A stretch of 64,000 bases of DNA from an uncultured Bacteroidia bacterium. GTDB taxonomy: Bacteria > Bacteroidota > Bacteroidia > Bacteroidales > UBA932. The translations under genes and the position numbers were made by a program. Location: assembly GCA_902779765.1 (NCBI GenBank), contig CACZCQ010000001.1, forward strand, positions 62,001-126,000. The letters run 5' to 3'. A model generated the notes under the pieces. It saw only the letters and a list, made by a program, of their open reading frames with translations. It was not told where the DNA came from and made no database searches. Within the stretch, counting starts at the first letter, position 1; the number at the start of each line of letters is the position of its first letter. Of this stretch, positions 35,522 through 48,284 are shown one piece after another.

Positions 35522-35567
35522 GGTACAGAGATTTCTAAAACTCTACAATAACTCTATACCAACCCCT

Positions 35568-35606
35568 ACAGAAGGGCTTGCAGAGTGGATGCAGGCCCTT
35601 CTGTTT
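35568..35606 (+). terminator. Strong terminator after M28 peptidase
   Basis: A 15-bp stem (35568-35582 with 35590-35604, one G-U pair) has a 7-base loop and a T-rich tail. It isolates the M28 gene from the phosphate module that begins at 35669. Confidence 0.85.
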
Positions 35607-35668
35607 CTCTACATGTTTTTGTTTTTCGCCCATTAATTACTATAATTACGAAAGCAATAACCAATGAT

Positions 35669-36334
35669 ATGGGCCTTTTCGACATATTCTCAAGGAAAAA
35701 AGCGGACAAGCTGATCGAGAGCGTGGACAAGCTCCTTGCCATTGTGGACCACTCCTTGCTGGTCTTCCGTGACGGTGTAAAGAATTACCTCTACAAGGAT
35801 GATCCCGACTTTGTCGAGAACCTCTCTTCGATGGCATCCCTCGAAACTGAGGCCGGAGCGCGGATCAGGGAGATTGAGAGCATCCTGTTTTCCCGGGGAT
35901 ATCTTATCCGCTCCCGTGGTGACATCATGCGTCTTCTCGAGCGTTTCGACCATATCATATCAATAATCAGCGTAGACCTGGTCCAGTTCGAGATCGAGAG
36001 CCCTTCCATTCCGGCCGATTTGCGGAAGGAGTTTGTCAAGCTGAGCGAACTTGCTTCGATGGCGGTCGAAAGCACCATTCCCGGGACCAAGGCATACTTT
36101 ACACAGCCGGAAGATGTGGCTGAGACGACGGACAGGGTCTATTTCTATGAGAAGGAGGCTGTCAAGCTCTCACAGTCGATCAAGCGTACCGTATTCCATG
36201 ACATGGGTGATGAACTGAAGCTCAGCGAAAAGTTCCATCTCAGATATTTCGCCCTGCATATCGAGGACCTGGCCAAGGCTGCTGTGAAGGTGGCGGAGCA
36301 ATTATCGGTAATGACTATCAAGCGGGCCCTTTAA
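35669..36334 (+). CDS. DUF47/PhoU-like protein
   Basis: A 221-residue all-helical cytosolic protein of the DUF47 (TIGR00153) family, related to PhoU. I place the start at ATG 35669 (MGLFDIFSRKKADK), which is the standard family start; the longer frame runs back into the terminator region. The conserved REIESILFSRGYLIRSRGD and LERFDHII segments are present. These proteins normally partner PiT-type phosphate permeases. Here the next gene, 6 bp away, is a PiT-like membrane domain fused to a DNA-binding domain, so this protein may modulate that regulator. Confidence 0.88.
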   Translation: MGLFDIFSRKKADKLIESVDKLLAIVDHSLLVFRDGVKNYLYKDDPDFVENLSSMASLETEAGARIREIESILFSRGYLIRSRGDIMRLLERFDHIISIISVDLVQFEIESPSIPADLRKEFVKLSELASMAVESTIPGTKAYFTQPEDVAETTDRVYFYEKEAVKLSQSIKRTVFHDMGDELKLSEKFHLRYFALHIEDLAKAAVKVAEQLSVMTIKRAL

Positions 36335-36340
36335 TATATT

Positions 36341-37957
36341 ATGGAAGCGATCCTGTACGTCATCTTCTCCGTAATCCTGGCAGAATCCCTGCCGGTCCTC
36401 CGGGATATCCCGGTTGTGAACGGCACCGTTCTGGCTTCCGGTGCCGGAGAACGGCTGTCCGTCAGGATCCTTTGGCCGCTGGTGTTGCTGGCCGGTATAG
36501 TTTCACCTTGCTTCCTGCCGGTGGAGCCCCTGTCTGAAACCGCCGGAAAGCTCTTCCTGCCGGTATCGACATGGTCTGTGCTTCCAATCGGCCTCGCGAC
36601 CGCGGTTGCGGCCATGGTGGCGGGACGTTTCAGCCGATTCCCTGCGGTTCCATATTCATTCATCGCTTCACTCGCCGGTGTCTCTCTGGCACTTACGGGC
36701 AGGATTGAATCCGATGTGGCTTTTTCCTACATCCTTTCCTGGTTTGCAGCACCGGTCCTGTGTGCTTTGCTTGCGGCGGGAATATACAGGCTCCACGCCT
36801 TGTCCATCAGGAACAAGAAGATCCACCTTGCAATCCTGGATGCCCGGCTTCAGGGCATATCCATAGTTTTTTCGTTCCTGCTCCTGGCGGCATTTTCCGT
36901 CAATTATTCCTTGCTTTTCTCCTATCTGCCCCAGGCAGCGACGGCAACCGCCTATGTCAGGGCAGCGATTGCCGGCGGTTGCGCCATCGTCCTGTATCCT
37001 GTTATGAGGAAGGGGATCCTGATGGAGACTTGGAATATCGCGGATTACGAACTTGACATAGACGCCCAGTCCATTTCCTCGATGCTCATCTCGATTTTCC
37101 TGGTCTTCGGCCTGTTCTCCAGCCCTCTACCCGGAATGGTCGGGATGGCTGCCACTCCGCTGCCGGCCGGCGTGCTGTTCTTCTCGGCACTGGCGGGGAT
37201 CAGCGTCACGCGGCAGCGCGCCCTGACCGAGGGAAGGGAGATAGTGAATACCCTGGCATCGGCTTTCCTTTCCCCGGTACTCGCATTGATGCTTGCATAT
37301 TGCTTTGCCCGGGTGATGGACGGAACAATTGTGGGAACACTCTTCGTGCTGGTCTTGGCATTGCTGGTCGCCGCCCTTCTGGTGTTCATACGCTGGCAGA
37401 GCGGCAGGAATCTCGAGAAGCAGATCCTCCGTTCAAGGGAACAGCAGTTCTACAGCACCCAGAAATCCCTGTCCGCTCTTGAGGTGAAAGCCGAGATGAC
37501 GGAGAAGGACCTGCTCAACAAACTGGATATCAAGCGCAAGGAACTGGTGGATTTCGCCCTCGGAATAGGGGACCAGAAGAAATTCATGGAACAGTTCTAT
37601 GAGGATCTGAGGGAAGTCAGGGCCCTGCCTGACGGTGACGCCAAGGATGCCATGACCGACAAACTCCTTTCCTCCCTGCGCGAAAGGATGTATTTCACAA
37701 GCGAGATGAACGATTTCTATGCCCGGAGCGAAGTCCTTCACAGGGACTTCAACCTGCGGCTTTCAGAGGCCTATCCCAACCTCACTGAAAACGAAAGGAA
37801 ACTGGCCAACCTCCTCAGGCAGGGCTTCTCTTCGAAATATATAGCATCATTGATGAACATAGCCCCGAAAAGCGTTGAAATCAACCGTTACCGCCTGCGT
37901 GCCAAACTTGGCCTGCAGCGTAGCGACAACCTCATAAAGTTTATAAAATCCATATAA
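36341..37957 (+). CDS. PiT-permease-like membrane protein fused to LuxR-type HTH
   Basis: A 538-residue protein with an unusual architecture. Residues 1-350 are about ten hydrophobic segments arranged as two loosely similar halves. RFSRFPAVPYSFIASLAG (96-113) and PGMVGMAATPLPAGVLFFSA (264-283) recall the two PxSxTH-type segments of PiT phosphate permeases, but the NDxAN transport residues are not seen. Residues 355-470 are charged and helical, probably a coiled coil. Residues 481-525 are a LuxR/GerE-type HTH (ENERKLANLLRQG, then IAPKSVEINRYRLRAKLGL), like that of bacteroidetal TPR-coiled-coil regulators. It sits where PiT normally follows DUF47. I infer a membrane-bound phosphate sensor and transcription factor. 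PiT homology is a judgement from pattern. Confidence 0.7.
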   Translation: MEAILYVIFSVILAESLPVLRDIPVVNGTVLASGAGERLSVRILWPLVLLAGIVSPCFLPVEPLSETAGKLFLPVSTWSVLPIGLATAVAAMVAGRFSRFPAVPYSFIASLAGVSLALTGRIESDVAFSYILSWFAAPVLCALLAAGIYRLHALSIRNKKIHLAILDARLQGISIVFSFLLLAAFSVNYSLLFSYLPQAATATAYVRAAIAGGCAIVLYPVMRKGILMETWNIADYELDIDAQSISSMLISIFLVFGLFSSPLPGMVGMAATPLPAGVLFFSALAGISVTRQRALTEGREIVNTLASAFLSPVLALMLAYCFARVMDGTIVGTLFVLVLALLVAALLVFIRWQSGRNLEKQILRSREQQFYSTQKSLSALEVKAEMTEKDLLNKLDIKRKELVDFALGIGDQKKFMEQFYEDLREVRALPDGDAKDAMTDKLLSSLRERMYFTSEMNDFYARSEVLHRDFNLRLSEAYPNLTENERKLANLLRQGFSSKYIASLMNIAPKSVEINRYRLRAKLGLQRSDNLIKFIKSI

Positions 37958-37976
37958 TCATTAATCCTAACCAATT

Positions 37977-39347
37977 ATGCGTAAGATTACTTTCATACTC
38001 GCGTTGATGCTGCTGGCAGTACCGGCAGCCCTCGCCCAGAAGGCGACTACCAAGTACAACCAGTACGGTGTGGCCGTCCAATCAGACCGCTTGGATGTGG
38101 AAGCCCAGGACGGAATCCTGGTGATGGAGTCCCCCAAGTCCGGCTACAAACTCTGGTTTGATATCCGTGCCCAGGCTGACGGTGCGGTATTTTTCGGCGC
38201 TCCGGAATATGCCGACCCTATCGGTAACGGTACAAGCATCCGCAGGGCCCGTTTCGCCGTCAAGGGCCAGATCGATGAAAAGTGGTACGGTGAGTTCGAT
38301 ATGGACCTTGCCAACGGTCTTGCAGAACTTAAGGACGCCATCATCCGTTATACCGGAATTCCCAACCTGGACCTTCAGGTAGGTAACTTCAAGGAGAATT
38401 TCTCCATCCAGCGCAACACCACTTCCCGTTACCTGCAGTTCATGGAGAGGCCGATGGTCACATCCGCCCTCTCTCCTTCCCGTCATATCGGAATCAATGC
38501 CAAGTATGCGAAGGACTGGCTCTGGTTCTCAGCAGGAGCCTTCTCGCAGATCATTGCCGGTCAGGAGGAGTGGACCAACGTGGCTGACAACAACAAGGAC
38601 TTCGGCCGCAATTCAGGCTATTCCCTTACCACCAAGCTGGTCATCCGTCCCCTCTACAAACTGGACAACGCCAGCCTTCACATAGGTGCCGCATATTCAT
38701 ACCGCACCACTACCACCGACCTGGCAACGGGAGAGTGGGGGACTTATCGTGCAAGTGCCCGTAATTCCACGAGCATCAACCGCAAGAAGTATCTCGACAC
38801 CAACAACCTGCCCGGTTACGACCACAACAACCTCTGGACGGTAGAGCTTGCCGGTCACTGGAAAGGTCTCCGCTATGAGGCGGCCTACATCGGCGACAAC
38901 GTCCATTTCAAGGCTGATGCGGCCGATCCCGAGACCAAGAATTTCGGAGGCTGGTACGCACAGGCCGGTTACCTGCTCTTCGGTGGAACCCAGCGCTATG
39001 ACTCCAATGGTGGCAAGTACACCAAGATCAAGCCGGTCCACAAATGGGGTGACCTCGAACTCTGCGGACGTTACGAGAATTGCAACCTCAACTTCGGCAA
39101 TGTCTATGGAGGCGCCTCCGAGGCTTATGCCGTGGGACTCAACTGGTGGGTGAACAACAACGTGAAACTGCAGCTCAACTATCAGTTCAACAACAACGAC
39201 CGTTATGCCAACGGCAAGGACAAGCTCCACGTCGGATTGGATTCCGCCGGCAACCCTACCAAGGATTACAAGAAGGTCGTGGCCGCTGACGGAAAGGCCG
39301 GAGTGGACTACCACATGCTCGCCCTTCGTTTCGAAATCGACTTCTAG
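37977..39347 (+). CDS. OprO/OprP-like phosphate-selective porin family protein
   Basis: A 456-residue outer-membrane porin. The signal peptide ends near ALAQ (residue 21). The barrel shows the porin O/P pattern: SIRRARFAVKGQIDEKWYGEFDMDLA, LDLQVGNFKENFSIQ, RYLQFMERPMV and a C-terminal YHMLALRFEIDF. Family members pass phosphate or polyphosphate. It starts 19 bp after the PiT-like/HTH regulator and precedes a lamin-tail lipoprotein by 25 bp. Context supports phosphate uptake. Confidence 0.85.
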   Translation: MRKITFILALMLLAVPAALAQKATTKYNQYGVAVQSDRLDVEAQDGILVMESPKSGYKLWFDIRAQADGAVFFGAPEYADPIGNGTSIRRARFAVKGQIDEKWYGEFDMDLANGLAELKDAIIRYTGIPNLDLQVGNFKENFSIQRNTTSRYLQFMERPMVTSALSPSRHIGINAKYAKDWLWFSAGAFSQIIAGQEEWTNVADNNKDFGRNSGYSLTTKLVIRPLYKLDNASLHIGAAYSYRTTTTDLATGEWGTYRASARNSTSINRKKYLDTNNLPGYDHNNLWTVELAGHWKGLRYEAAYIGDNVHFKADAADPETKNFGGWYAQAGYLLFGGTQRYDSNGGKYTKIKPVHKWGDLELCGRYENCNLNFGNVYGGASEAYAVGLNWWVNNNVKLQLNYQFNNNDRYANGKDKLHVGLDSAGNPTKDYKKVVAADGKAGVDYHMLALRFEIDF

Positions 39348-39372
39348 TTTGACATATTAAAAGACACTGATC

Positions 39373-40203
39373 ATGAAAAAGATATTCTTTATTTCTGCAG
39401 CGATCCTTCTGGCGCTCACCGGATGCGTCAAAGACGAAATGTACAAGGGCCCTTCATCCATCGACAAGGTTGTGTTCAGCCCCGAGGCTCCTACCTCCAT
39501 CACGCCCATCGAGGTTACCGCTACCGTGAGCGGGCTCCAGGCGGTGACTTCAGCCGTCCTGAATTACAACGGTTCCAGCATCCAGATGACCGGTTCCGGC
39601 AATCAGTTCAAGGCAACGATTCCCGCACAACCTGACGGTACCAATGTTTCTTTCTCGGTGACCGTGGACAACGAAGCCGGATTCAAGACAACTTCAGACA
39701 ATTTCTCATTCAAGGTCGGCGACCCTGCTACGGACTGGAGCAAGCTGAAACTCAACGAAGTCTATGGTGCCGGAGCGGACGAGGAGAAATTCTTCGAACT
39801 TTACAACGGCAGCGACTTCCCGATCAAGCTCAACGGAGTGACCATCAACAAGGACGAGGAGCTGACCTGGACCGGAATCGACGGTTATGTGGTTCCTGCA
39901 AAAGGCTATTTCTCGATAGTTGGAGCTAAAGGAACGGCAAAAAAGAATGGTGGTTTCAAAAGTGGTTTTTCTGCGAAGAAAAGTGTTCTTGTTGAACTGT
40001 TCGATCCTAAAGGCAATCGGATTGATTTCTTCCAGCGAGGTGAAAAAATGGACTCTGGTGAGTGGGGTGCTGGTCTTTCAGGTGTTAAAGGTTCCTGGAG
40101 CCGTATTCCTGACGGTGTTGGTAAATGGATGATAACAGACAGTATTACAGAAGGAGTCGCCAATTCTACCTCTGGCAGTGAGGATCCTGATGTTAAACAA
40201 TAA
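39373..40203 (+). CDS. Lamin-tail-domain lipoprotein of mosaic composition
   Basis: A 276-residue lipoprotein, Cys18 in the lipobox (LLALTGC). Residues about 20-115 are an Ig-like sandwich; from about 125 a lamin tail domain begins (KLKLNEVYGAG, EEKFFELYNGSDFPIKL). Base use changes abruptly near 39905: the first two thirds use G/C-ending codons as the neighbours do, while the last 300 bases use mostly A/T-ending codons. The gene is intact, so a recombination event probably replaced its 3' part. It may be a surface partner of the porin. Confidence 0.8.
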   Translation: MKKIFFISAAILLALTGCVKDEMYKGPSSIDKVVFSPEAPTSITPIEVTATVSGLQAVTSAVLNYNGSSIQMTGSGNQFKATIPAQPDGTNVSFSVTVDNEAGFKTTSDNFSFKVGDPATDWSKLKLNEVYGAGADEEKFFELYNGSDFPIKLNGVTINKDEELTWTGIDGYVVPAKGYFSIVGAKGTAKKNGGFKSGFSAKKSVLVELFDPKGNRIDFFQRGEKMDSGEWGAGLSGVKGSWSRIPDGVGKWMITDSITEGVANSTSGSEDPDVKQ

Positions 40204-40221
40204 CCAATTAAACAAACAGAT

Positions 40222-40860
40222 ATGGCAGAACTTAAAATAGGCGAGCAGAGCAAGCCTCGCTTCGAATTCCGCAGTTTCGGCCAGTGCTTCTGCGCTGCCC
40301 ACAAGAGGATGGCACGTCTTTCCGTTCCCGTTCCCGAGAAGGTCTGGGAGAGGGAGAGCGATGAGATATACATCATCTCGGCCAAGAACGACATCAACAA
40401 TACCAAGATCCGTGACGGCAAGATGGACATCAAGACCTATGTTCAGACCGTCGACGGCCTCGAGCAGTGGAATCCCCTCATGAAGGGAGAGTTCCCAATC
40501 TCACGCGAGGTCCTGGAGAAGGAAGTATTCCCTGCCTTCATGGTCGAGATGCCCGCCCTTGACAAGGACACATATACCTTCGAGGAGTTCATCGCCATGG
40601 TGAAGGCCAATCCCGACCTTGCCGCGGTGCGCGTGCACAAGCAGCGTTTCGGATATATGGTCAACAACACGATCTGCGAGGTGGCCAACGTGCTCATCAA
40701 CGGAGCGAAGGTGGTGACCATCAATTCCGAGTCCACCGAGATAGAAGACATCAAGAAGACCATCGCTGACGTGGGTCTCGAGGGAGTTGAGAATATCAAC
40801 TATCTCCAGGCGATCAAGCGTGTCATCGGCATGAGTGACAAACCTTTAGCAAACGAATAA
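40222..40860 (+). CDS. Divergent CYTH-like protein (unassigned)
   Basis: I do not recognise a named family. The 212 residues have the CYTH/VTC layout: an N-terminal FEFRSF strand, DEIYIISAKNDINNTKIRDG like the tunnel strand with IRxR-type residues, KMDIKTYVQT, and a C-terminal INSESTEIEDIKKTI followed by NYLQAIKRVIG. It lacks the ExExK start of canonical members. No signal or membrane segment is seen, so it is cytosolic. It is 4 bp before a canonical CYTH gene, which supports a polyphosphate- or triphosphate-related role, as inference. Confidence 0.55.
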   Translation: MAELKIGEQSKPRFEFRSFGQCFCAAHKRMARLSVPVPEKVWERESDEIYIISAKNDINNTKIRDGKMDIKTYVQTVDGLEQWNPLMKGEFPISREVLEKEVFPAFMVEMPALDKDTYTFEEFIAMVKANPDLAAVRVHKQRFGYMVNNTICEVANVLINGAKVVTINSESTEIEDIKKTIADVGLEGVENINYLQAIKRVIGMSDKPLANE

Positions 40861-40864
40861 CATC

Positions 40865-41341
40865 ATGGCTCAGGAAATAGAAAAGAAATTCTTGGTCAAG
40901 GGAGACTTCAAGGGAGAAGCTTTCAAGGCCACACGTATCACCCAGGGTTATCTCTGCAGCGTTCCGGAAAGGACCGTGCGCATCAGGGTGAAAGGAGATA
41001 AAGGTTTCATCACCGTGAAAGGTATCGGCAATGCCTCGGGCGCAGCCCGTTTCGAATGGGAGAAGGAAATCCCTGTCGACGAGGTGAAGGCCCTTCTCGA
41101 CCTTGCCGAACCCGGAGTGATCGACAAGACCCGCTACCTTGTGAAGAACACCGACGGAGTCCATACCTGGGAGGTCGATGAGTTCTACGGGGACAACGAC
41201 GGCCTGACCGTCGCCGAAGTGGAACTTGCAGACGAGAACGAACCCTTCGACAAGCCCGAGTGGCTTGGAGAAGAGGTTACCGGCGATCCCAAGTACTTCA
41301 ACTCCATGTTGATGAAGAACCCTTACAAGAACTGGAAATAA
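40865..41341 (+). CDS. CYTH-domain inorganic triphosphatase-like protein
   Basis: A 158-residue cytosolic protein with the signature EIEKKF at 4-9, then RTVRIRVKGDKGFITVKG, ARFEWEKEI and EVDEFYGDNDGLTVAEVEL, which line the metal-triphosphate tunnel. It resembles bacterial tripolyphosphatases rather than class IV adenylate cyclases. Probably it hydrolyses triphosphate to phosphate and pyrophosphate. It lies 4 bp after a divergent CYTH-like gene and 1 bp before an SLC13 permease. Confidence 0.9.
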   Translation: MAQEIEKKFLVKGDFKGEAFKATRITQGYLCSVPERTVRIRVKGDKGFITVKGIGNASGAARFEWEKEIPVDEVKALLDLAEPGVIDKTRYLVKNTDGVHTWEVDEFYGDNDGLTVAEVELADENEPFDKPEWLGEEVTGDPKYFNSMLMKNPYKNWK

Positions 41342-41342
41342 A

Positions 41343-42953
41343 ATGGAAGCAGATATCAAGGCAAAGGCGGCGGAGCAGTTCGATCCGCTGGACATGAACA
41401 ACTACAAGGTCGAGAAACTGCCCAAGATGCAGAAATCGAAATTCGAGATCTGGATGGCCAGGCTTGGCGGTCCGCTTGCGATCGTCGCCTTTGTCTGGAT
41501 ATGCTGGTTCTGCCACATTGGCTTCATCGACAACCTCGACCAGACAGGCCTTGCCGCCACGGCCCAGAAGAGGCTGGACGCGCTCGGACTGGATGGTTTC
41601 ATCAGGGCGAATTACGCGATGCTGGCAATCTTCGTTGCCAGCCTGATCCTGTGGATGACGGAAGCGTTGCCGAATTATCTGACATCCCTTCTGCTCATCC
41701 TGGGAGTCGTCCTGTTCAATGTAACAACCCAGAAGGAAGCCCTGGCACAACTCGGTCACCCCGTGATGTGGCTGAATATCCTGAGTTTCGTGCTGGCCTC
41801 GATGCTGGTCAAGACCCAGTTTGCCAAGCGTCTGGCCCTGGCCTTCGTGATAAAGTTCGGCAAGAGTGCCAAAGGGGTCCTGTGGAGTTTCCTGGTGATC
41901 AACCTCGTGCTCTCCGCCTTCATCTCGGCGACCACCGTCAAGGCCACCATCATGCTCCCCATATTCATGGTCATCTGCGCCATCTACGGAGCCTCCGACG
42001 GGCACAGGAATAATTTCGGCCGCAACCTCGTGATCCAGAACCTGTTCCAGGTGAATATCGGTGCCAATGCCTTCTACACCGGTTCAGGCGCCCACCTGCT
42101 GGCTATCTCCCTGATTGCCGGATTCCTCGGCTCCTGTGATTTCGGATATGCCGACTGGCTTGTAGCCGTAGGACCGATGAGTATCATCATCCTGATTGTC
42201 GGCCTGCTGGTGGGTATGTACATATTCTTCCCGATGAAGAAGGAAGAGCAGCATCCCCAGATCGAAGGTGGAATAGAACGCCTGAGGGTTGAACTCGATG
42301 CCATGGGAAAGATGAGCGCCCAGGAATGGAGGGCCGTCAGCATATTCCTTGTCGTCCTCTTCCTCTGGGTCACGAAGGGCACCTTCCATAACATCGACGA
42401 GACGATAGTCGCTTTGATCGGAGCCTGCCTCGCCCTGCTTCCCGGAATAGGGGTGGTCAAGTGGAACGACGTGGACATCCCCTGGCACCTTATGCTCTTC
42501 TCGGCCGGAGCATATGTACTTGGAAGCGGACTGAATGCTACCGACCTGCCGAGCACGATGGTCAATGCGGCCTTCGACTCGATGGGAATCACCTCCGGAA
42601 CTCCGTTCTGGGTCCTCTATGTGATCCTTACGTTCCTGATGATGTATTCAGGACTGGTGTTCCAGAGCAAGACCATCCGGACGATGGTGTTCGTACCCAT
42701 CGCCCTCGGAGTGGAACAAAGGTTCGGCTTCATGCCGATGAGCCTGTCGCTGCCGGTTGCCATGCTGATCGAGCACTGTTATGTGCTGCCGTTCAACAGC
42801 AAACCTGCGGCACTTCTTTACAATACGAACCAATACAGTCAGACCGATGCCTTCAAGTTCGGTATCACGATGATGACATTCTCGTGGTTGCTGATACTGA
42901 TTTTCGGGCAGACGGTCCTCAAGTGGCTGAGCATTACACCAGGTCTTTTTTAA
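41343..42953 (+). CDS. SLC13/DASS-family anion permease
   Basis: A 536-residue inner-membrane protein with roughly 11-13 hydrophobic segments and a cytosolic N-terminal tail. The two family half-motifs are seen: ISATTVKATIMLPIFMVIC in the first half and FNSKPAALLYNTNQYSQTDAFK in the second. DASS carriers import dicarboxylates, sulfate, phosphate or similar anions with sodium. The substrate is not determined by sequence; the flanking phosphate-related genes make a phosphate-type anion possible. Gap to CYTH is 1 bp and to MgtC 12 bp. Confidence 0.85.
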   Translation: MEADIKAKAAEQFDPLDMNNYKVEKLPKMQKSKFEIWMARLGGPLAIVAFVWICWFCHIGFIDNLDQTGLAATAQKRLDALGLDGFIRANYAMLAIFVASLILWMTEALPNYLTSLLLILGVVLFNVTTQKEALAQLGHPVMWLNILSFVLASMLVKTQFAKRLALAFVIKFGKSAKGVLWSFLVINLVLSAFISATTVKATIMLPIFMVICAIYGASDGHRNNFGRNLVIQNLFQVNIGANAFYTGSGAHLLAISLIAGFLGSCDFGYADWLVAVGPMSIIILIVGLLVGMYIFFPMKKEEQHPQIEGGIERLRVELDAMGKMSAQEWRAVSIFLVVLFLWVTKGTFHNIDETIVALIGACLALLPGIGVVKWNDVDIPWHLMLFSAGAYVLGSGLNATDLPSTMVNAAFDSMGITSGTPFWVLYVILTFLMMYSGLVFQSKTIRTMVFVPIALGVEQRFGFMPMSLSLPVAMLIEHCYVLPFNSKPAALLYNTNQYSQTDAFKFGITMMTFSWLLILIFGQTVLKWLSITPGLF

Positions 42954-42965
42954 AATGAATGGATT

Positions 42966-43586
42966 ATGACAATAGAATGGAATTTCATACTTAGGATATT
43001 AATAGCCGGCCTGCTGGGCGGGGCGATTGGTTTTGAACGTGAATTCAGGGCGAAGGAGGCCGGGGTGAGGACCCATTTCATAGTGGCCCTCGGCAGCGCG
43101 CTGTTCATGATCATCTCGCAGTATGCTTTCTCAGGGCAGTTCGACCATTCAAGGGTTGCAGCCCAGGTCGTGTCGGGAATCGGTTTCATCGGTGCTGGCG
43201 TTATCATATTCCAGAAGAATGTCGTCCGCGGCGTTACTACGGCTGCCGGCCTCTGGGTCGCCGCCGCCATAGGCCTGGCCTGCGGTTCTGGAATGTACGC
43301 CCTGGCCACCGCCGCCATGCTCATGACCATCATATGCCTCGAGACCATGCATATCATCACCAATAAATACAGCGAAAAGATCCTTACCGTCTCACTGTCT
43401 CCAGTCGACGGCGACAGGCTTCTTGAATTCATGGACGGCGCCAAGGCCCGCAAGATCGATATAGATTCTTTCGTGGTGACCGATGAGAAGGCCACCCTTC
43501 AGGTCCGCACAAAGCTCCTCAAAACCACGGAAACATCCAAGAATCTCCTCGCCCTCAGCAAAGGCCTCAAAATCGAGATCTCCTGA
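42966..43586 (+). CDS. MgtC/SapB-family membrane protein
   Basis: A 206-residue inner-membrane protein. The N-terminal half has four or five hydrophobic helices with family residues GGAIGFEREFRAKEAGVRTH, GIGFIGAGVI and VRGVTTAAGLW, and the C-terminal part is a soluble ACT-like domain. Some MgtC homologues adapt cells to low magnesium and restrain ATP or phosphate uptake, which would fit as the last gene of a phosphate operon. That link is inference. It converges on the permease array 20 bp later. Confidence 0.88.
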   Translation: MTIEWNFILRILIAGLLGGAIGFEREFRAKEAGVRTHFIVALGSALFMIISQYAFSGQFDHSRVAAQVVSGIGFIGAGVIIFQKNVVRGVTTAAGLWVAAAIGLACGSGMYALATAAMLMTIICLETMHIITNKYSEKILTVSLSPVDGDRLLEFMDGAKARKIDIDSFVVTDEKATLQVRTKLLKTTETSKNLLALSKGLKIEIS

Positions 43587-43606: not shown

Positions 43607-45943
43607 CTATTCCTTTCTCAAAGCCACTGCGGGGTCGGTGCGGGCCATCTTGAGGTAGTGGTAGAGGACTACTGCAGAGCAGAGGAGAATCACTACCAGC
43701 AATGCAATCAGGAACACGCCAAGCGAGAAGCCGACCCTGTGTGAGAACTGTTGGAGGTAGTACCTTACGCACAGCCATCCAATCGGGGCCGCAATCACAT
43801 AGCAGATTGCGAGAGTACGGAGATAAATACCCAGACCTTCAGAAGTGATCTGATTCATTTCGGCCCCGAACACCCGCTTCACGGAAATCTCCATCCGCTT
43901 GTACTGCACATCCATCAGCACCTGGCCCCAGATGCCCACCAGCGACAGCAACACTGCCAGCAGGGAGAACAGCCACACGGCCAGCCGCAGGCGCTCCTCG
44001 CCGCTGTAGAGGTTCTTGCCGATGGCATCGTAGAACTGCACCTCGAACGGTATCGTCGGGTCCATATCCCTGAGGATGGCCTGGATCTTACCGGTGGCGG
44101 CCAGACGGTCAGAACCTTCGGACAGGCGGATATAGGCGAACGGCATGGAGTGCCCCTTTGGGGTATGCACCTGGAAAGCAACCGGTGAATCGGCCTTGCG
44201 CATAGACGTAATGTTCACATTCTTCACGAATCCCACAATGGGGGAGTCATCGCCGAATTCATCGGCATACACCTCCATCTCAGCGCCGTGCGCCTTCAAA
44301 TCTTTCGTGAACAGGATCGGGCCGAACTCGCCTTCGTTGAAATCCCTTCCTTCAATGAGTTCCAGCCCGAGTACCTGCGGCAGATTCCAGCTGCAGTAAA
44401 TCATGTTCATCGACACCTGGCCATCACCGAAGTCCGCACCCTCCGTCATATAAGTATCCGACCCGCCGATGAGATCATTCGCGTAGGCCACGTCCTTCAC
44501 CTCCGGAAGTGCGCATAGCCTCTCCCGCAGCCAGTCGGCCTTCTCCCTGCAGTTCTCGCCGCCGATATTCACCACCGCCAAGTTATTCTTGTTGTAGCCG
44601 CAGGGATATTCCTGCATGAACTTGCTCTGTCGCTGGACGAACAGCACGAAGATGAGCAACGCCGTGGAAATAACGAACTGCACCCCAACCAGGATGGTCC
44701 TGAGGTTCTTTCCGGAGGCCGACAGGCCATAGTTACCCCGCAGGATCATCGCCGGCTGGCCGCTCGTGGAATAGATACCCGGCCAGATACCGGCAATGAT
44801 ACCGGTAGCCACGGCAACCGTTCCGACGAACAGCATCAGGTCCCAATGCTTGCCGATAGCAAAAGACTGCATCAGCACACCCCTGGACAGCAACGCATCG
44901 GAAACCGGTCCCAGCAGAAGGGCTGCCACTACAAAGGCGCAGATGCACCAGATGACCGCCTCTGCCACCACCAGAGCACGCAGCCGCCGGGTTGAAGACC
45001 CCAGGATCTTCTGCAGGTTCACGCTCCTGATGCGCAGCGGCGTCAGTGCCACATAGAAATTGGTGAAGTTGATCAGGCCGATGCCCAGGATCAGGATGGC
45101 AATCGCGATTAGCAGAAGCAGCTGCGAACGGCTGCCGCTCTTATAAACATTACCCTCGTTTCGGAAATAGATGCTGGTCAGCGGCACCAGTTCGATGGGC
45201 GTAAGCCAGTCTCCTTGCGGAGGAAAGTCGAAATGGGCGTTGAACTCATCGGCCACCGCTCCGGCATTGCCAGCATCGTCCAGCAGCAGATAGCAGACAA
45301 AGTTGGCTCCGCCGTAAGAACCTTTCTGAATATCCCCGACAGTCATAAACAGGTCATTCCCTAGCTGAGTATTTGTCGGGAAGTCCTCATACACACCGGT
45401 CACGGTGATTTCACGTGGAATCTCCATATACTTGGCATCCGTCTTCAGCAGTTTGCCCGTCGCCCGCTCTCCGGGAAACAGGTTCTCTGCCAGCGACCGG
45501 GGAATAATCACGGAATTGGGGCCCTCCAGCGCGTGAGAATCGCCCTCGATCATCTTGATGCCGAAGACATCGATGAAACGTTCCGATACGAAGATCAGGT
45601 CCCGCTTGTAGCCGACCGGATCCTTGCCTTCCTCCGCCACGGAGAAATAGATCTCTCCCAAGAACGGCATGAACGTACATCCCGCCTCTATATGGGCCGA
45701 TGAGCCGATGATATCGTCGGCAAAGCCTCTTGGTAATATGTTCCTGAACAGCGATTCATCGCCTTTCTTATCGGCCCGGAAAACCCGGTCGGCCGTCGGA
45801 TGGCACTTGTCAAAAGACAGCTCATAATCCGCCTGCAGGAAAATCAGGGCGAAGGCAAGTAGCGCTGCCACAAGTCCCGTGAAGTTCAGGACCACTGCCA
45901 CCGGATAGCGGCGGATGAGGCTCTTGAGATTCTTTTGTATCAT
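43607..45943 (-). CDS. ABC exporter permease, MacB/FtsX type (terminal copy)
   Basis: A 778-residue inner-membrane permease with an N-terminal anchor helix, a MacB-type periplasmic domain, a first FtsX block (about 275-430), a second periplasmic domain and a final FtsX block, ending DPAVALRKE. This tail and its N-terminus (MIQKNLKSLIRRYP) differ from the four matched copies, so it is an outlying paralogue. It is the last gene of the minus-strand array, 4 bp after the next permease. Confidence 0.87.
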   Translation of the reverse strand: MIQKNLKSLIRRYPVAVVLNFTGLVAALLAFALIFLQADYELSFDKCHPTADRVFRADKKGDESLFRNILPRGFADDIIGSSAHIEAGCTFMPFLGEIYFSVAEEGKDPVGYKRDLIFVSERFIDVFGIKMIEGDSHALEGPNSVIIPRSLAENLFPGERATGKLLKTDAKYMEIPREITVTGVYEDFPTNTQLGNDLFMTVGDIQKGSYGGANFVCYLLLDDAGNAGAVADEFNAHFDFPPQGDWLTPIELVPLTSIYFRNEGNVYKSGSRSQLLLLIAIAILILGIGLINFTNFYVALTPLRIRSVNLQKILGSSTRRLRALVVAEAVIWCICAFVVAALLLGPVSDALLSRGVLMQSFAIGKHWDLMLFVGTVAVATGIIAGIWPGIYSTSGQPAMILRGNYGLSASGKNLRTILVGVQFVISTALLIFVLFVQRQSKFMQEYPCGYNKNNLAVVNIGGENCREKADWLRERLCALPEVKDVAYANDLIGGSDTYMTEGADFGDGQVSMNMIYCSWNLPQVLGLELIEGRDFNEGEFGPILFTKDLKAHGAEMEVYADEFGDDSPIVGFVKNVNITSMRKADSPVAFQVHTPKGHSMPFAYIRLSEGSDRLAATGKIQAILRDMDPTIPFEVQFYDAIGKNLYSGEERLRLAVWLFSLLAVLLSLVGIWGQVLMDVQYKRMEISVKRVFGAEMNQITSEGLGIYLRTLAICYVIAAPIGWLCVRYYLQQFSHRVGFSLGVFLIALLVVILLCSAVVLYHYLKMARTDPAVALRKE

Positions 45944-45947
45944 TTGA

Positions 45948-48284
45948 TTATTCGTTCTTCAGGGAATCTACGGGGTTGGAGGTGGAGATGCGCCAGGTGT
46001 TGAGGACGACCACGATGAGAATGATCAGGAGTACCGCCAACGTACCGGCAAGGAAGTAGAAGGGGTTCAGGGATACCTTCTCGGCGAACAGTTCCAGCAT
46101 CCTGCGGGCAACGAAGAAGCTGCCGGCACAGGCCAGGGCTGCCATTACGAGGGAAAGTTTGAGTATGTCAGAGGCGAATATCCTGAGAATATCCTTGGCC
46201 GAGGCTCCGTTGATCTTGCGGACGGCCATCTCCTTGCTGCGCCTAAGGCTTTCGTCACGGATGAAACCGATCAGACCGAGAAGGGCTACGAGGAGGGAGA
46301 ATATGGCTCCGATTGTCAGAGTATTCCTTATCTTCCTAACGTCGGTATAGGCAGCGCGCATCTGATTCTCGTAGGAGAGTATATTCACTTCGCGGCCTTC
46401 CAGAGTCTCCTCCAGGGCGGTTTTCACTTTCTCCAGATCCTCGGGAAGCACCTTGAACAGAATATGGGGCATCCAGGACGACATCGAGCCGATCTCGCCG
46501 TAGAACAAGGCGCTGGGACGTTTGTCGACGGCTACGAGACTGCCGATAAGATAGCTCTTATATACACCGGAGATGGTGAAATACTGCCTTCCCTGCATGT
46601 CCTGGCGGTCATGCCCGGTGATGAACACCTGCTTCCCGACAGCCCCGTCACTCCAATCCGTGAACTCGGACATCTTTGCCACAAACTTCTCATCCACAAC
46701 TATTTCCGAGGAATCTCTCGGTGCCCGTCCATCGACAAATTGAATATTCATCAGATCAAAGAACTCCGGAGAGCATTCGTACTGGTCGGCGATGTTGAAC
46801 AGCTCCCGGTCGTCGTCCGGCAAATAGACATTGTCACCGCTGGAACCGTCGAAGGGCAGGTTGTAGCTGGTTGCCACTCCTTTCACTTCGGGAAACCCGC
46901 GAAGTGTTGCAACAGCCCTTGAGACCGCCTGGCGGTCGCCGTCGAACATGCTGATGTAGTAGAGGTCCTTATAGTCATAGCCAGGGTTGCTGTTGGAGAC
47001 TATCTGGTACTGACGGCCGATGACCAGCATCATCACCACAAGGAAAACGTTGATCAGGACCTGTAAGCCCAGGAGGCCGAGTTTCCAGTTACGCGAGTGT
47101 TCGGTGTAGTTCTTGAGCGCCTCATATACAGGTATTTTCTGATAGAGTTCCGCCGGTACGACGATAGAGACCAGCAGCACGAAGAGGATGACAGCAATGA
47201 CTGCCACGACACTCTTCGGCACCAGCAGGGTAGTGAACGGCACGCCGAGAAGGTTTTCTATGATGCCTCTCCCGGCGATTATGATGACTGCTGCAAGAGC
47301 AAGGGACAGGGCAAGGTGAAGTAATGCTTCCTTCGTCAGCATACCGTAAATATTCCTGCTTTCCGCACCATAGCACTTTCTGACACCGACTTCCCTGGAA
47401 CGTTTGACCATGGAGGAGATGACTATCAGGATGTAGTTGAGCAAACTGATGAGGATCAGCAGGGCTGCGACGATCGACAGGAGGATGATCTGGGATTTTA
47501 TTTCAGGTTGGGAGGTGTGGACCTTGCTGAAAGGGCTCAGGAAGTACCTGAGACTCGTGCCGTTGGCTTCAATCTGCTCCAAAGGCTGGTGGGCCTCCTG
47601 CATCTTCCTGATGGCATCCTTGAGGGTCTCGGGGTCCACTCCTGGCATCAGTTTGACATAGCCTTTGTACCTGTCGTTGCCGAGCCAGTTGTCCGTGCTC
47701 TGCTTGCCGTAGGTTTCCATTGAAAGGAGGATGTCATAGTCCAGGCTTCCGTTCCTGGGGAAATCCTCGAAGACTCCTTCGACCGGGAGTTTTAGGCCGG
47801 CCATATCCTCGTTGTAAACCTGTTTGCCGATGCACTCCTGCACACCGCCCAGTTTCTCTGCGAAACTCCGGCTTACCATCACTCCGCCCCACTTTCCGAG
47901 AATCTTCACAGGATCTCCGGCCAGGACCGGCCTGTCGAAGACCTTGAAGAAACAGGTATCTGCGCAGACCAGCGTGGCCTTCAGTTTGTTACCATCCTCA
48001 TCAAGGTATGTGTCGCCATTGAAGACAAAGGTTGTGCGTGTACCGGTCTCGACACCGGGCACTTCCTCCATGAAGCCCACGGCAACGGCTCCGCTCACCT
48101 GACCGTAATCTTTTTCGTCCCCGTTCTGGGAAATCCATGTCCTTATGGTGTACACCCGGTCAATGTCCTTGTAGAAACTGTCGTAGCTGAGTTCGAAGAA
48201 CACTTTGGCGATAAGTACGATACCCACTGCCAGCCCGATGCCCAGGGAAAGAATCTTGATGAGGAGATCACTGTGCCTTTTCAT
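45948..48284 (-). CDS. ABC exporter permease, MacB/FtsX type
   Basis: A 778-residue permease with the duplicated FtsX-periplasmic layout. It ends NPVDSLKNE, the same tail as the copy next to the ATPase (60640-62979), placing these two in one subgroup. REVGVRKCYGAE and KEMAVRKINGA are the coupling-helix regions of the two FtsX halves. It begins the final two-permease segment; a 225-bp region with regulatory palindromes lies upstream, so it may have its own promoter. A near -7 word CTACTTTG is seen on the minus strand near 48341. Confidence 0.87.
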   Translation of the reverse strand: MKRHSDLLIKILSLGIGLAVGIVLIAKVFFELSYDSFYKDIDRVYTIRTWISQNGDEKDYGQVSGAVAVGFMEEVPGVETGTRTTFVFNGDTYLDEDGNKLKATLVCADTCFFKVFDRPVLAGDPVKILGKWGGVMVSRSFAEKLGGVQECIGKQVYNEDMAGLKLPVEGVFEDFPRNGSLDYDILLSMETYGKQSTDNWLGNDRYKGYVKLMPGVDPETLKDAIRKMQEAHQPLEQIEANGTSLRYFLSPFSKVHTSQPEIKSQIILLSIVAALLILISLLNYILIVISSMVKRSREVGVRKCYGAESRNIYGMLTKEALLHLALSLALAAVIIIAGRGIIENLLGVPFTTLLVPKSVVAVIAVILFVLLVSIVVPAELYQKIPVYEALKNYTEHSRNWKLGLLGLQVLINVFLVVMMLVIGRQYQIVSNSNPGYDYKDLYYISMFDGDRQAVSRAVATLRGFPEVKGVATSYNLPFDGSSGDNVYLPDDDRELFNIADQYECSPEFFDLMNIQFVDGRAPRDSSEIVVDEKFVAKMSEFTDWSDGAVGKQVFITGHDRQDMQGRQYFTISGVYKSYLIGSLVAVDKRPSALFYGEIGSMSSWMPHILFKVLPEDLEKVKTALEETLEGREVNILSYENQMRAAYTDVRKIRNTLTIGAIFSLLVALLGLIGFIRDESLRRSKEMAVRKINGASAKDILRIFASDILKLSLVMAALACAGSFFVARRMLELFAEKVSLNPFYFLAGTLAVLLIILIVVVLNTWRISTSNPVDSLKNE

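Follow-up and report, generated by a model that had tools for sequence, protein, structure and literature searches.

A conserved Bacteroidota gene set with a PiT-type membrane protein carrying a LuxR-type helix-turn-helix and a possible role in phosphate-type oxyanion uptake

Genes and features of the locus

The window analyzed here is a stretch of 64,000 nucleotides. Within it, the eight closely spaced plus-strand genes of the preliminary description were all recovered, with gaps in the ORF list of 6, 19, 25, 18, 4, 1 and 12 bp from gene 1 to gene 8 (Table 1). In that list gene 1 begins further upstream, at a GTG (35585); the start used here is an in-frame ATG. The eight genes presumably form one locally regulated operon read as a single transcript.

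Table 1 Features of the locus in window coordinates
Feature	Position	Strand	Description
Candidate operator copy 1	35541-35547	+	CTCTACA inside AACTCTACAATAACTCTATA
Hairpin	35568-35604	+	Between the operator copies
Candidate operator copy 2	35607-35613	+	CTCTACA; beside promoter-like pair
Gene 1	35669-36334	+	DUF47 / PhoU_div-like protein, 221 aa
Gene 2	36341-37957	+	PiT-type membrane domain, long coil and LuxR-type HTH; PiT signatures erased
Gene 3	37977-39347	+	Porin_O_P outer-membrane channel, 456 aa
Gene 4	39373-40203	+	Lamin-tail-domain (LTD) lipoprotein, 276 aa
Gene 5	40222-40860	+	212 aa; predicted triphosphate-tunnel fold; no Pfam family over cut-off
Gene 6	40865-41341	+	CYTH domain protein, 158 aa; ExExK present
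Gene 7	41343-42953	+	DASS/SLC13 permease, 536 aa
Gene 8	42966-43586	+	MgtC family protein, 206 aa; accessory

The hairpin upstream of gene 1 had been described as a strong terminator. Its strength was confirmed (-27.3 kcal/mol, z -4.94, with none of 200 shuffles as good), but its T tail is poor and it was not listed by a terminator scan that allowed loops of 3-8 nucleotides. It probably closes the transcript of the M28 peptidase gene that precedes it. The second operator copy adjoins a TTTTTG / TATAATTAC pair at 35616-35649, seen by eye, which we take to be promoter-like by the Bacteroides promoter consensus.

In Pfam searches, gene 3 matched Porin_O_P with 144 bits (cut-off 20.9), gene 7 matched Na_sulph_symp with 178.9 bits (cut-off 27) and gene 8 matched MgtC with 136 bits (cut-off 31.4). 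Gene 4 matched LTD with 44.9 bits, and its lipoprotein signal was assigned by eye (LPAM_1 reaches 13 bits, under its cut-off). The DUF47 match of gene 1 lies below the cut-off (21.5 against 24.4 bits); its homologs in two other loci, L119 and L222, exceed it. A DUF47 gene also stands at a contig end (L001). Gene 7 also scores just below the cut-off of TIGR00785 (197 against 198.6) and differs from its paralogs in the substrate motifs. The SNT-type motifs usual in all 16 paralogs are replaced by lysine-bearing SATT[VA]KA, [QE]SK[TN] and NSKPA. Four residues located at the substrate-motif positions or close to them, K200, K443, R446 and K487, are found in at least 97% of 58 DASS sequences and in none of the 16 paralogs.

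Genes 5 and 6 had both been called CYTH-type. For gene 6 the name stands by Pfam (CYTH, 55.1 bits). The protein conserves the ExExK motif as E4, E6 and K8, its nearest solved relative by sequence is NE1496 (2fbl/3typ), and with the domain and motif of a CYTH triphosphatase it may have that activity. Gene 5 can be placed by fold only: no Pfam family is over cut-off (best DUF4488, 14.4 bits, cut-off 27), there is no NCBIfam match, no solved relative was found by sequence at E ≤ 1, and ExExK is absent, with a conserved E15-x-R17-x-F19 in its place. Its AF2 model (pLDDT 91.2) is nearest in Foldseek to AtTTM3 with tripolyphosphate, and the comparison with 5a5y gave E 1.7e-6, TM 0.48 and rmsd 8.1; the rmsd of the best matches is high (6-8 Å). 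The predicted fold indicates a divergent triphosphate-tunnel (CYTH-type) protein. A profile comparison of genes 5 and 6 showed no similarity and gave no support for homology between them.

Conservation of the gene set

A first comparison covered 20 loci selected by a match to gene 2, and is biased for that gene. When loci were retrieved with gene 5 alone, the order porin, LTD protein, gene 5, CYTH protein and DASS permease was kept in all 48 full-length loci. Of these loci, 38 have DUF47 and the same 38 have the HTH fusion, with a PiT domain in 37; the remaining 10 lack both, and the pair is thus separable from the rest. Median gaps across the relatives' loci are 1-45 bp. ORF calling occasionally picked the wrong strand (e.g. 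L037, L042, L049). The best 80 of 474 relatives (genome contigs) are titled as Bacteroidales or Bacteroidia MAGs, or in one case as a Bacteroides MAG, many of them from ruminant gut.

At the phylum level, outside the class of the window, 10 of 12 loci have the permuted order gene 5, CYTH, DASS, DUF47, PiT and porin, and gene 5 adjoins DUF47 and PiT in L119 and L120. The recurrence of the families in permuted order, together with the constant order in the gene-5-retrieved loci, upholds the earlier proposal that the genes belong together. A scatter of homologs elsewhere in related genomes, which would have spoken against it, was looked for and not seen. The proposal does not extend to MgtC, which is accessory and not core: it occurs in 32 of the 48 full-length loci, had no match among the 12 phylum-level loci, and its position is taken in other relatives by an unrelated gene (c7). 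Among the records seen in part in a literature search, we found no published description of the gene set; one Vibrio genomics match was judged unrelated.

Gene 2 and its candidate operator

Gene 2 was correctly recognized in the preliminary description as a PiT-like/HTH fusion. It consists of a membrane domain (residues ~1-325), a long coil (~326-465) and a LuxR-type HTH (~466-538). The HTH is over the Pfam cut-off (GerE, 31.2 bits against 23.5), and the membrane domain is under it (PHO4, 16.5 against 33.7). The AF2 model has a multi-helix membrane domain of fair confidence (mean pLDDT 85.7), and the sole Foldseek match of the model with E ≤ 0.001 is the phosphate transporter TmPiT (6l85; E 1.2e-4, TM 0.43/0.56). 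The A3 profile matches 6l85 with E 1.8e-25, and also matches DosR/DevR HTH chains. This moderate structural match indicates a predicted PiT fold. Membrane helices and a DNA-binding domain in one chain are the architecture of a transmembrane transcription regulator.

The GANDVANA signature is absent from both halves of gene 2 and of its family where readable. Of 13 fusions from other members of the order, 10 retain an intact first PiT signature, in a count that left out short PiT-type ORFs (≤ 290 aa, e.g. L100, L107, L109); the starts of six distant PiT proteins were re-read upstream before signatures were compared. Within the family of gene 2, the HTH is 60-96% identical to that of the window and the membrane domain 19-64%. 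The PiT domain is barely recognizable in L048 and absent in L050, and the HTH persists in both. L050 and L188 encode DUF47 fused to the HTH without an intervening PiT domain, and L128 encodes DUF47, PiT and HTH as a single ORF.

These observations bear on whether gene 2 is still a transporter of altered specificity, its HTH merely fine-tuning its own synthesis. The retained multi-helix membrane domain and the first signature kept in order-level fusions would be in keeping with transport. However, the loss of the checked signature regions in the window's family, the drift of the membrane domain and the persistence of the HTH where the PiT domain fades make this highly improbable. More likely, a transporter-derived membrane protein became the regulator of its local operon, as judged from sequence.

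A candidate operator accompanies the fusion. Of 38 DUF47 loci, 36 have the motif CTCTACA upstream of this gene; in the 10 loci that lack DUF47 it never occurs upstream of the porin (Fisher p 1e-8). These counts are not independent because the loci are related. The exact motif is missing from L168 and L188 among the DUF47 loci, and in order-level relatives it is often absent or only partial. A regulon search covering exact copies found 18 occurrences of ACTCTACAA in the genome. Two of these belong to this operon, and one of the two falls within the gene that precedes it. A genome-wide regulon was dropped because 15 of the other 16 copies fall within open frames that span 170 codons or more; one (L265) is intergenic. 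The candidate operator thus looks local to this operon. The earlier idea of a built-in membrane regulator has gained a candidate operator and is likely, but DNA binding and the sign of regulation are features that we infer. Titles and abstract starts among the matches listed in a literature search included no paper on a PiT-HTH fusion.

Substrate and comparison with known systems

The preferred reading, to which we give about even weight, is that the operon imports a phosphate-type oxyanion and processes it, with Pi or a short chain such as tripolyphosphate as the likeliest candidate, under regulation by the PiT-derived gene 2. The anion would cross the outer membrane by way of the OprO/P-type porin and the surface lipoprotein, and the DASS permease, with lysines and usually an arginine at its substrate-motif positions, would carry it inward over the inner membrane. 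Once in the cytosol, the anion may be bound or cleaved by the CYTH protein of gene 6 and the divergent tunnel protein of gene 5. Gene 2, as a PiT without transport signatures, would act as a membrane sensor, and together with DUF47 would report substrate status to its own LuxR-type domain, which would act at the CTCTACA sites just upstream of DUF47. Of the phosphate/polyphosphate operon first proposed, the grouping of the genes stands, but the substrate is unsettled, with the PiT signatures lost and neither PPK1 nor PPK2 detected in the genome. The likeliest substrate, though unproven, is phosphate or short-chain phosphate. This view draws on the ExExK motif of gene 6 and its nearness to NE1496, the likeness of gene 5 to AtTTM3 with tripolyphosphate, the DASS residues described above, the adjacency of gene 5 to DUF47 and PiT in L119 and L120, and genes for a PhnD-like binding protein, a kinase and a sigma-54 regulator beside the permuted loci.

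The family names may mislead, and the module may handle another oxyanion (sulfate, phosphite, phosphonate or similar); we regard this as a possible but clearly less probable reading. The otherwise intact PiTs of the module have GANN for GAND in the second signature, and the preceding His is missing. Extracts of the literature give the second-signature Asp and His as critical in human PiT2, and report Asn at this position in the sulfate carrier CysP. Six of eight PiT-type proteins scanned match NCBIfam CysP, all far below cut-off (74-92 bits, cut-off 400), and none of the six reaches E ≤ 1e-5 with an NCBIfam phosphate model. Some members of the DASS family transport sulfate. The PhnD-like binding protein, kinase and sigma-54 regulator are encoded divergently from the permuted module; of 10 permuted loci, 3 were read for this trio and the others judged by ORF lengths, and the full ORF-length pattern is absent from L218, L221 and L223. 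The PhnD-like protein also scores on phosphite/phosphonate and selenate models, below cut-off. Against another oxyanion, it is hard to see what DUF47 and the pair of triphosphate-tunnel proteins would do with sulfate, and the first-signature Asp is retained in 10 of 13 order-level fusions. In addition, a DUF47-like ORF of 216 aa, recognized by eye, precedes a separate PitA-like PiT in all four genus loci examined (L226-L229). The family scan of this PiT, made for L226, ranked PitA (86.9) above CysP (70.0).

In yeast, a PiT, an SLC13-type carrier and a tunnel protein occur in combination, and the module resembles this. An intracellular, acidocalcisome-like polyphosphate module, in which gene 5 makes or senses polyphosphate, gene 6 trims it and the carriers feed phosphate, would also fit the triphosphate-tunnel fold of gene 5 and the CYTH domain of gene 6. 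We consider it improbable: PPK1 and PPK2 were looked for in the genome and neither was found, PPK1 is not associated with the module in a set of 295 genomes (present in 26 of 35 that carry the module and in 165 of the 260 others, p 0.26), and the VTC4 polymerase is not among the best 50 Foldseek matches listed for gene 5. Polyphosphate synthesis as the core role is not supported by the PPK evidence.

A bolder version of the phosphate-type uptake reading remains tentative, and we rather doubt it. The free PiT, the PiT-HTH with intact first signature, the signature-less PiT-HTH and the DUF47-HTH would form a stepwise series from transporter to DNA-binding membrane sensor, its stages still to be seen in present-day relatives. 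The resulting sensor would privately control import of tri- or short polyphosphate through the porin and the lysine-bearing DASS permease, and processing by the pair of tunnel proteins. If the uptake and regulation readings are true, Bacteroidota would have an independent uptake system of phosphate type, complete with a one-component regulator and a short DNA site, and nature would offer graded intermediates between a transporter and a transcription regulator. The highly conserved protein of gene 5 would gain a setting, and PiT, DASS and tunnel proteins would be concrete candidates for the entry of phosphate chains into bacterial cells.

Several known systems share parts of this design. PitR of S. 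aureus is presumably a DUF47 protein. PiT (SLC20/PHO4) transporters with a PhoU-like partner, as in TmPiT (6l85) and S. aureus PitA-PitR, have in common with the locus a PiT-type fold and an adjacent PhoU-like gene. Unlike PitA-PitR, gene 2 lacks both signatures and has its own DNA-binding domain. PitR is reported to affect phosphate-responsive transcription and differs in acting on the separate PhoPR system (PMC13170248). Gene 6 keeps the ExExK and the conserved basic and acidic residues of CYTH inorganic triphosphatases (NE1496, 2fbl/3typ; PMC3440374, in part), whereas gene 5 has the fold with E-x-R for ExExK. Gene 7 is homologous at the family level to DASS/SLC13 proteins (VcINDY, LaINDY and plant dicarboxylate transporters), but its SNT-type motifs are replaced. 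The trio of PhnD-like binding protein, kinase and response regulator resembles AioXSR three-component systems (PMC5908839, in part, and others); it lies beside the permuted form of the module and not at the window's operon.

Other likenesses concern the architecture of gene 2. Transmembrane transcription regulators, enriched in Bacteroidota according to parts of PMC10269533, also join a membrane region and a DNA-binding domain in one chain. The main text of that source has "transporter" once, in a reference title, and neither LuxR nor GerE; the sensor of gene 2, by comparison, is predicted to be a whole secondary-transporter fold. Reuse of a transporter fold for signaling is also known from CbrA, an SLC5 domain with a histidine kinase (PMC8871633, in part), and from the Amt sensors (6eu6, 8qj3). 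CbrA, in the same partial account, is a two-component kinase, whereas the DNA-binding domain of gene 2 is attached directly to the transporter-derived domain.

An eight-gene run and its persistence in relatives

ORF calling in the window recovered eight plus-strand genes separated by gaps of 1-25 bp, as the preliminary description had claimed. Its family assignments stood in part: Pfam supports the porin (Porin_O_P), the LTD lipoprotein, the CYTH protein encoded by gene 6, the DASS permease, MgtC and a LuxR-type HTH at the C-terminus of gene 2, whereas the DUF47 match of gene 1 and the PHO4 match of gene 2 fall below the Pfam cut-off. For gene 5, neither Pfam nor NCBIfam gave a family above its cut-off.

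Features of the operon and of the loci compared (L-numbers; from relatives and the same genome)
Feature	Position	Strand	Remark
CTCTACA	35507		upstream of operon, within preceding gene
CTCTACA	35541 and 35607		upstream of operon
Hairpin	35568-35604		5' of the eight ORFs; -27.3 kcal/mol, z -4.94
Gene 1, DUF47	35669-36334	+	
Gene 2, PiT/HTH fusion	36341-37957	+	
Gene 3, porin	37977-39347	+	
Gene 4, LTD lipoprotein	39373-40203	+	
LTD gene, 3' half	39800-40300		compositional shift
Gene 5	40222-40860	+	
Gene 6, CYTH	40865-41341	+	
Gene 7, DASS	41343-42953	+	
Gene 8, MgtC	42966-43586	+	
Two 778-aa ORFs	43607-48284	-	convergent with operon
c7	L045:1355-2815		and 18 further loci
~919-aa protein	L088:1013-3769		also L091, L099, L102, L109
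Beta-propeller gene	L034:4316-5146		and others
ORFs near module	L106:13123-14295, L224:2651-3820		
Second DUF47 gene	L001 (G000:C2:187645-188196)		contig end

The order DUF47, PiT/HTH, porin, LTD, gene 5, CYTH, DASS is kept in 20 same-genus loci, picked by their gene 2 match, wherever the stretch extends. A second survey used gene 5 as the sole query. Of the order, 295 genomes were searched and 40 matched, with identity reaching at least 71% in 35 (a count that includes the own genome). The 34 non-own loci of this group contain CYTH in 33 cases (the exception, L108, stops at a contig end), DASS in 32, the porin in 29 and DUF47 in 15; four of the five loci lacking the porin are cut by contig ends and L104 is a real exception. 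Gene 5 relatives at 47% identity or below (L115-L120) lie elsewhere or have fewer partners. The best 80 of 474 relatives, retrieved with gene 5 alone, include 48 full-length loci (at least 18 kb). Porin, LTD, gene 5, CYTH and DASS occur in that order in all 48, DUF47 and the HTH in the same 38, and PiT in 37. MgtC and c7, a conserved protein of ~486 aa, are mutually exclusive in these 48 (32 with MgtC only, 14 with c7 only, two with neither).

Across the phylum, gene 5 gave 13 matches in 394 genomes, own included. The 12 non-own loci are recorded as belonging to the phylum but outside the class. Ten carry the permuted order gene 5-CYTH-DASS-DUF47-PiT-porin, followed in eight by LTD and an SdiA-like propeller gene; the remaining two are L215, which has no DUF47-PiT, and L217, truncated at a contig end. 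The survival of the set through this rearrangement is strong evidence of a common task. The proposal that these genes belong together is thus upheld by the conserved and the permuted loci alike: the gene set is genuine, patchy yet order-wide, and extends to other classes, and co-function is well supported.

Several further features were observed around the module. c7 occupies the place 3' of DASS that MgtC takes in the window's close relatives, and in five loci the ~919-aa protein is encoded downstream of DASS; one protein of each was scanned, with no Pfam match for c7 and no Pfam family above cut-off for the other. The SdiA-regulated/phytase-like beta-propeller gene sits between CYTH and DASS, or 5' of gene 5, in some relatives. 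The tabulated ORFs of L106 and L224 look like two adenylate kinases in tandem, and the two adjacent 778-aa ORFs may be MacB/FtsX-type permeases. In the 3' half of the LTD gene, G+C drops to 0.425-0.465 (0.475-0.59 in most surrounding windows), GC skew climbs to +0.37 and codon style, judged by eye, also seems to shift, as if of another origin.

Gene 2 and a candidate operator

The predicted structure of gene 2 has TmPiT as its sole Foldseek match at E ≤ 0.001. We aligned 44 PiT-type proteins, 13 of which are HTH fusions of other families in the order. These retain the first-signature GAND in 10 of 13 cases (it is altered in L088 and unaligned in L105, and L110 is split) and the second-signature GANN in 11 of 13, with L110 showing GANN in its upstream piece. 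In the gene 2 family of the window, the second signature and the PVST-type stretches are missing from 18/18 members and the first signature from all 17 readable ones (L049 is unreadable there); identity to the window is 60-96% in the HTH versus 19-64% in the membrane domain. DUF47 is fused directly to the HTH in L050 and L188, two loci on contigs of identical length, and L128 encodes DUF47, PiT and HTH as a single ORF. The PiT proteins of the ten permuted loci gave no HTH match. In L216, L219 and L222, the permuted loci read for this, genes for a sigma-54 regulator, a histidine kinase and a PhnD-like binding protein are divergent to the module; the three binding proteins were assigned by NCBIfam matches below cut-off, the L222 genes by Pfam.

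In 36 of the 38 full-length loci that have DUF47 (best 80 of 474 relatives), CTCTACA or its complement occurs in the 250 bp preceding that gene, with 89 sites in 9.5 kb of DUF47-upstream sequence versus 159 in the remaining ~883 kb. The two loci without it are L168 and L188, the latter being the one locus of the 38 that lacks a PiT domain. The ten full-length loci without DUF47 have no CTCTACA in the 250 bp, or even 1000 bp, upstream of the porin (36/38 vs 0/10, Fisher p 1e-8, for loci that are related and not independent). Exact sites were found in 6 of 15 order loci with DUF47 outside the genus, counting two whose upstream region falls outside the stretch, and none in 12 HTH-less loci (L119, L120 and the ten permuted loci). 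The whole window contains 11 sites against 5.0 expected. The longer sequence ACTCTACAA has 18 exact copies in the genome versus 8 for its reversed control. Two lie at this operon; 15 of the other 16 fall inside open frames 170 codons or longer, and the last, in L265, is 6 bp 5' of a 480-aa ORF. Gene 2 encodes a transporter-derived, predicted DNA-binding protein that is probably autoregulatory, and it is likely to regulate the operon.

Gene 5, the DASS permease and the substrate

Gene 5 is 94-98% identical to the window copy in the best 80 of 474 relatives, 88-97% in the 20 same-genus loci and 71-93% in the order; gene 2, by contrast, falls to ~30% already inside the genus. A tandem paralogue, 36-42% identical, directly precedes gene 5 in L091, L099, L100, L102, L105, L109 and L114. 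The AF2 model of gene 5 (pLDDT 91.2) has as top Foldseek matches AtTTM3 with tripolyphosphate and thiamine triphosphatase (E 1.7e-6 and 3.0e-6; TM ~0.5, rmsd 6-8). E15, R17, R64, K71, E81, K140, E153 and E170 are conserved in at least 95% of 77 gene 5 sequences, in which the ExExK of gene 6 is not kept. We infer that gene 5 forms a tunnel which has kept its ability to bind a phosphate chain but whose catalysis is altered or lost.

All 16 DASS paralogues carry SNT-type motifs at the compared positions. The window and 14/14 module members have SATT[VA]KA, [QE]SK[TN] and NSKPA there; K200, K443, R446 and K487 each recur in 97% or more of 58 DASS sequences, and R446 is Gln in one of the 14 members, L238. 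Because cationic residues replace the SNT-type motifs, the sequences suggest that the substrate may be a highly charged anion and not a dicarboxylate.

Phosphate or short phosphate chains are candidate substrates of the module, with evidence both ways. They are favoured by the presence of tunnel proteins and of DUF47, by the family of the porin and by the cationic motifs of DASS, as well as by the adjacency of gene 5 to DUF47 and PiT in L119 and L120. Against them, no PPK1 or PPK2, no PHO4 match at E ≤ 0.001 and no PstC above cut-off was found in the genome (97.75% complete). Since the second DUF47 gene sits at a contig end, its partner PiT may have been lost in an assembly gap; a PHO4 match is present in 43 of 120 genus genomes. 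PPK1 occurs in 26/35 module genomes versus 165/260 others (p 0.26). Also against phosphate, the first-signature Asp is retained in 3 of the 10 permuted-locus PiTs, and, even with the first signature intact, the second signature of module PiTs has Leu, Met or Phe at the His critical in human PiT2 and Asn at the critical Asp. Asn at this position is reported for the sulfate carrier CysP.
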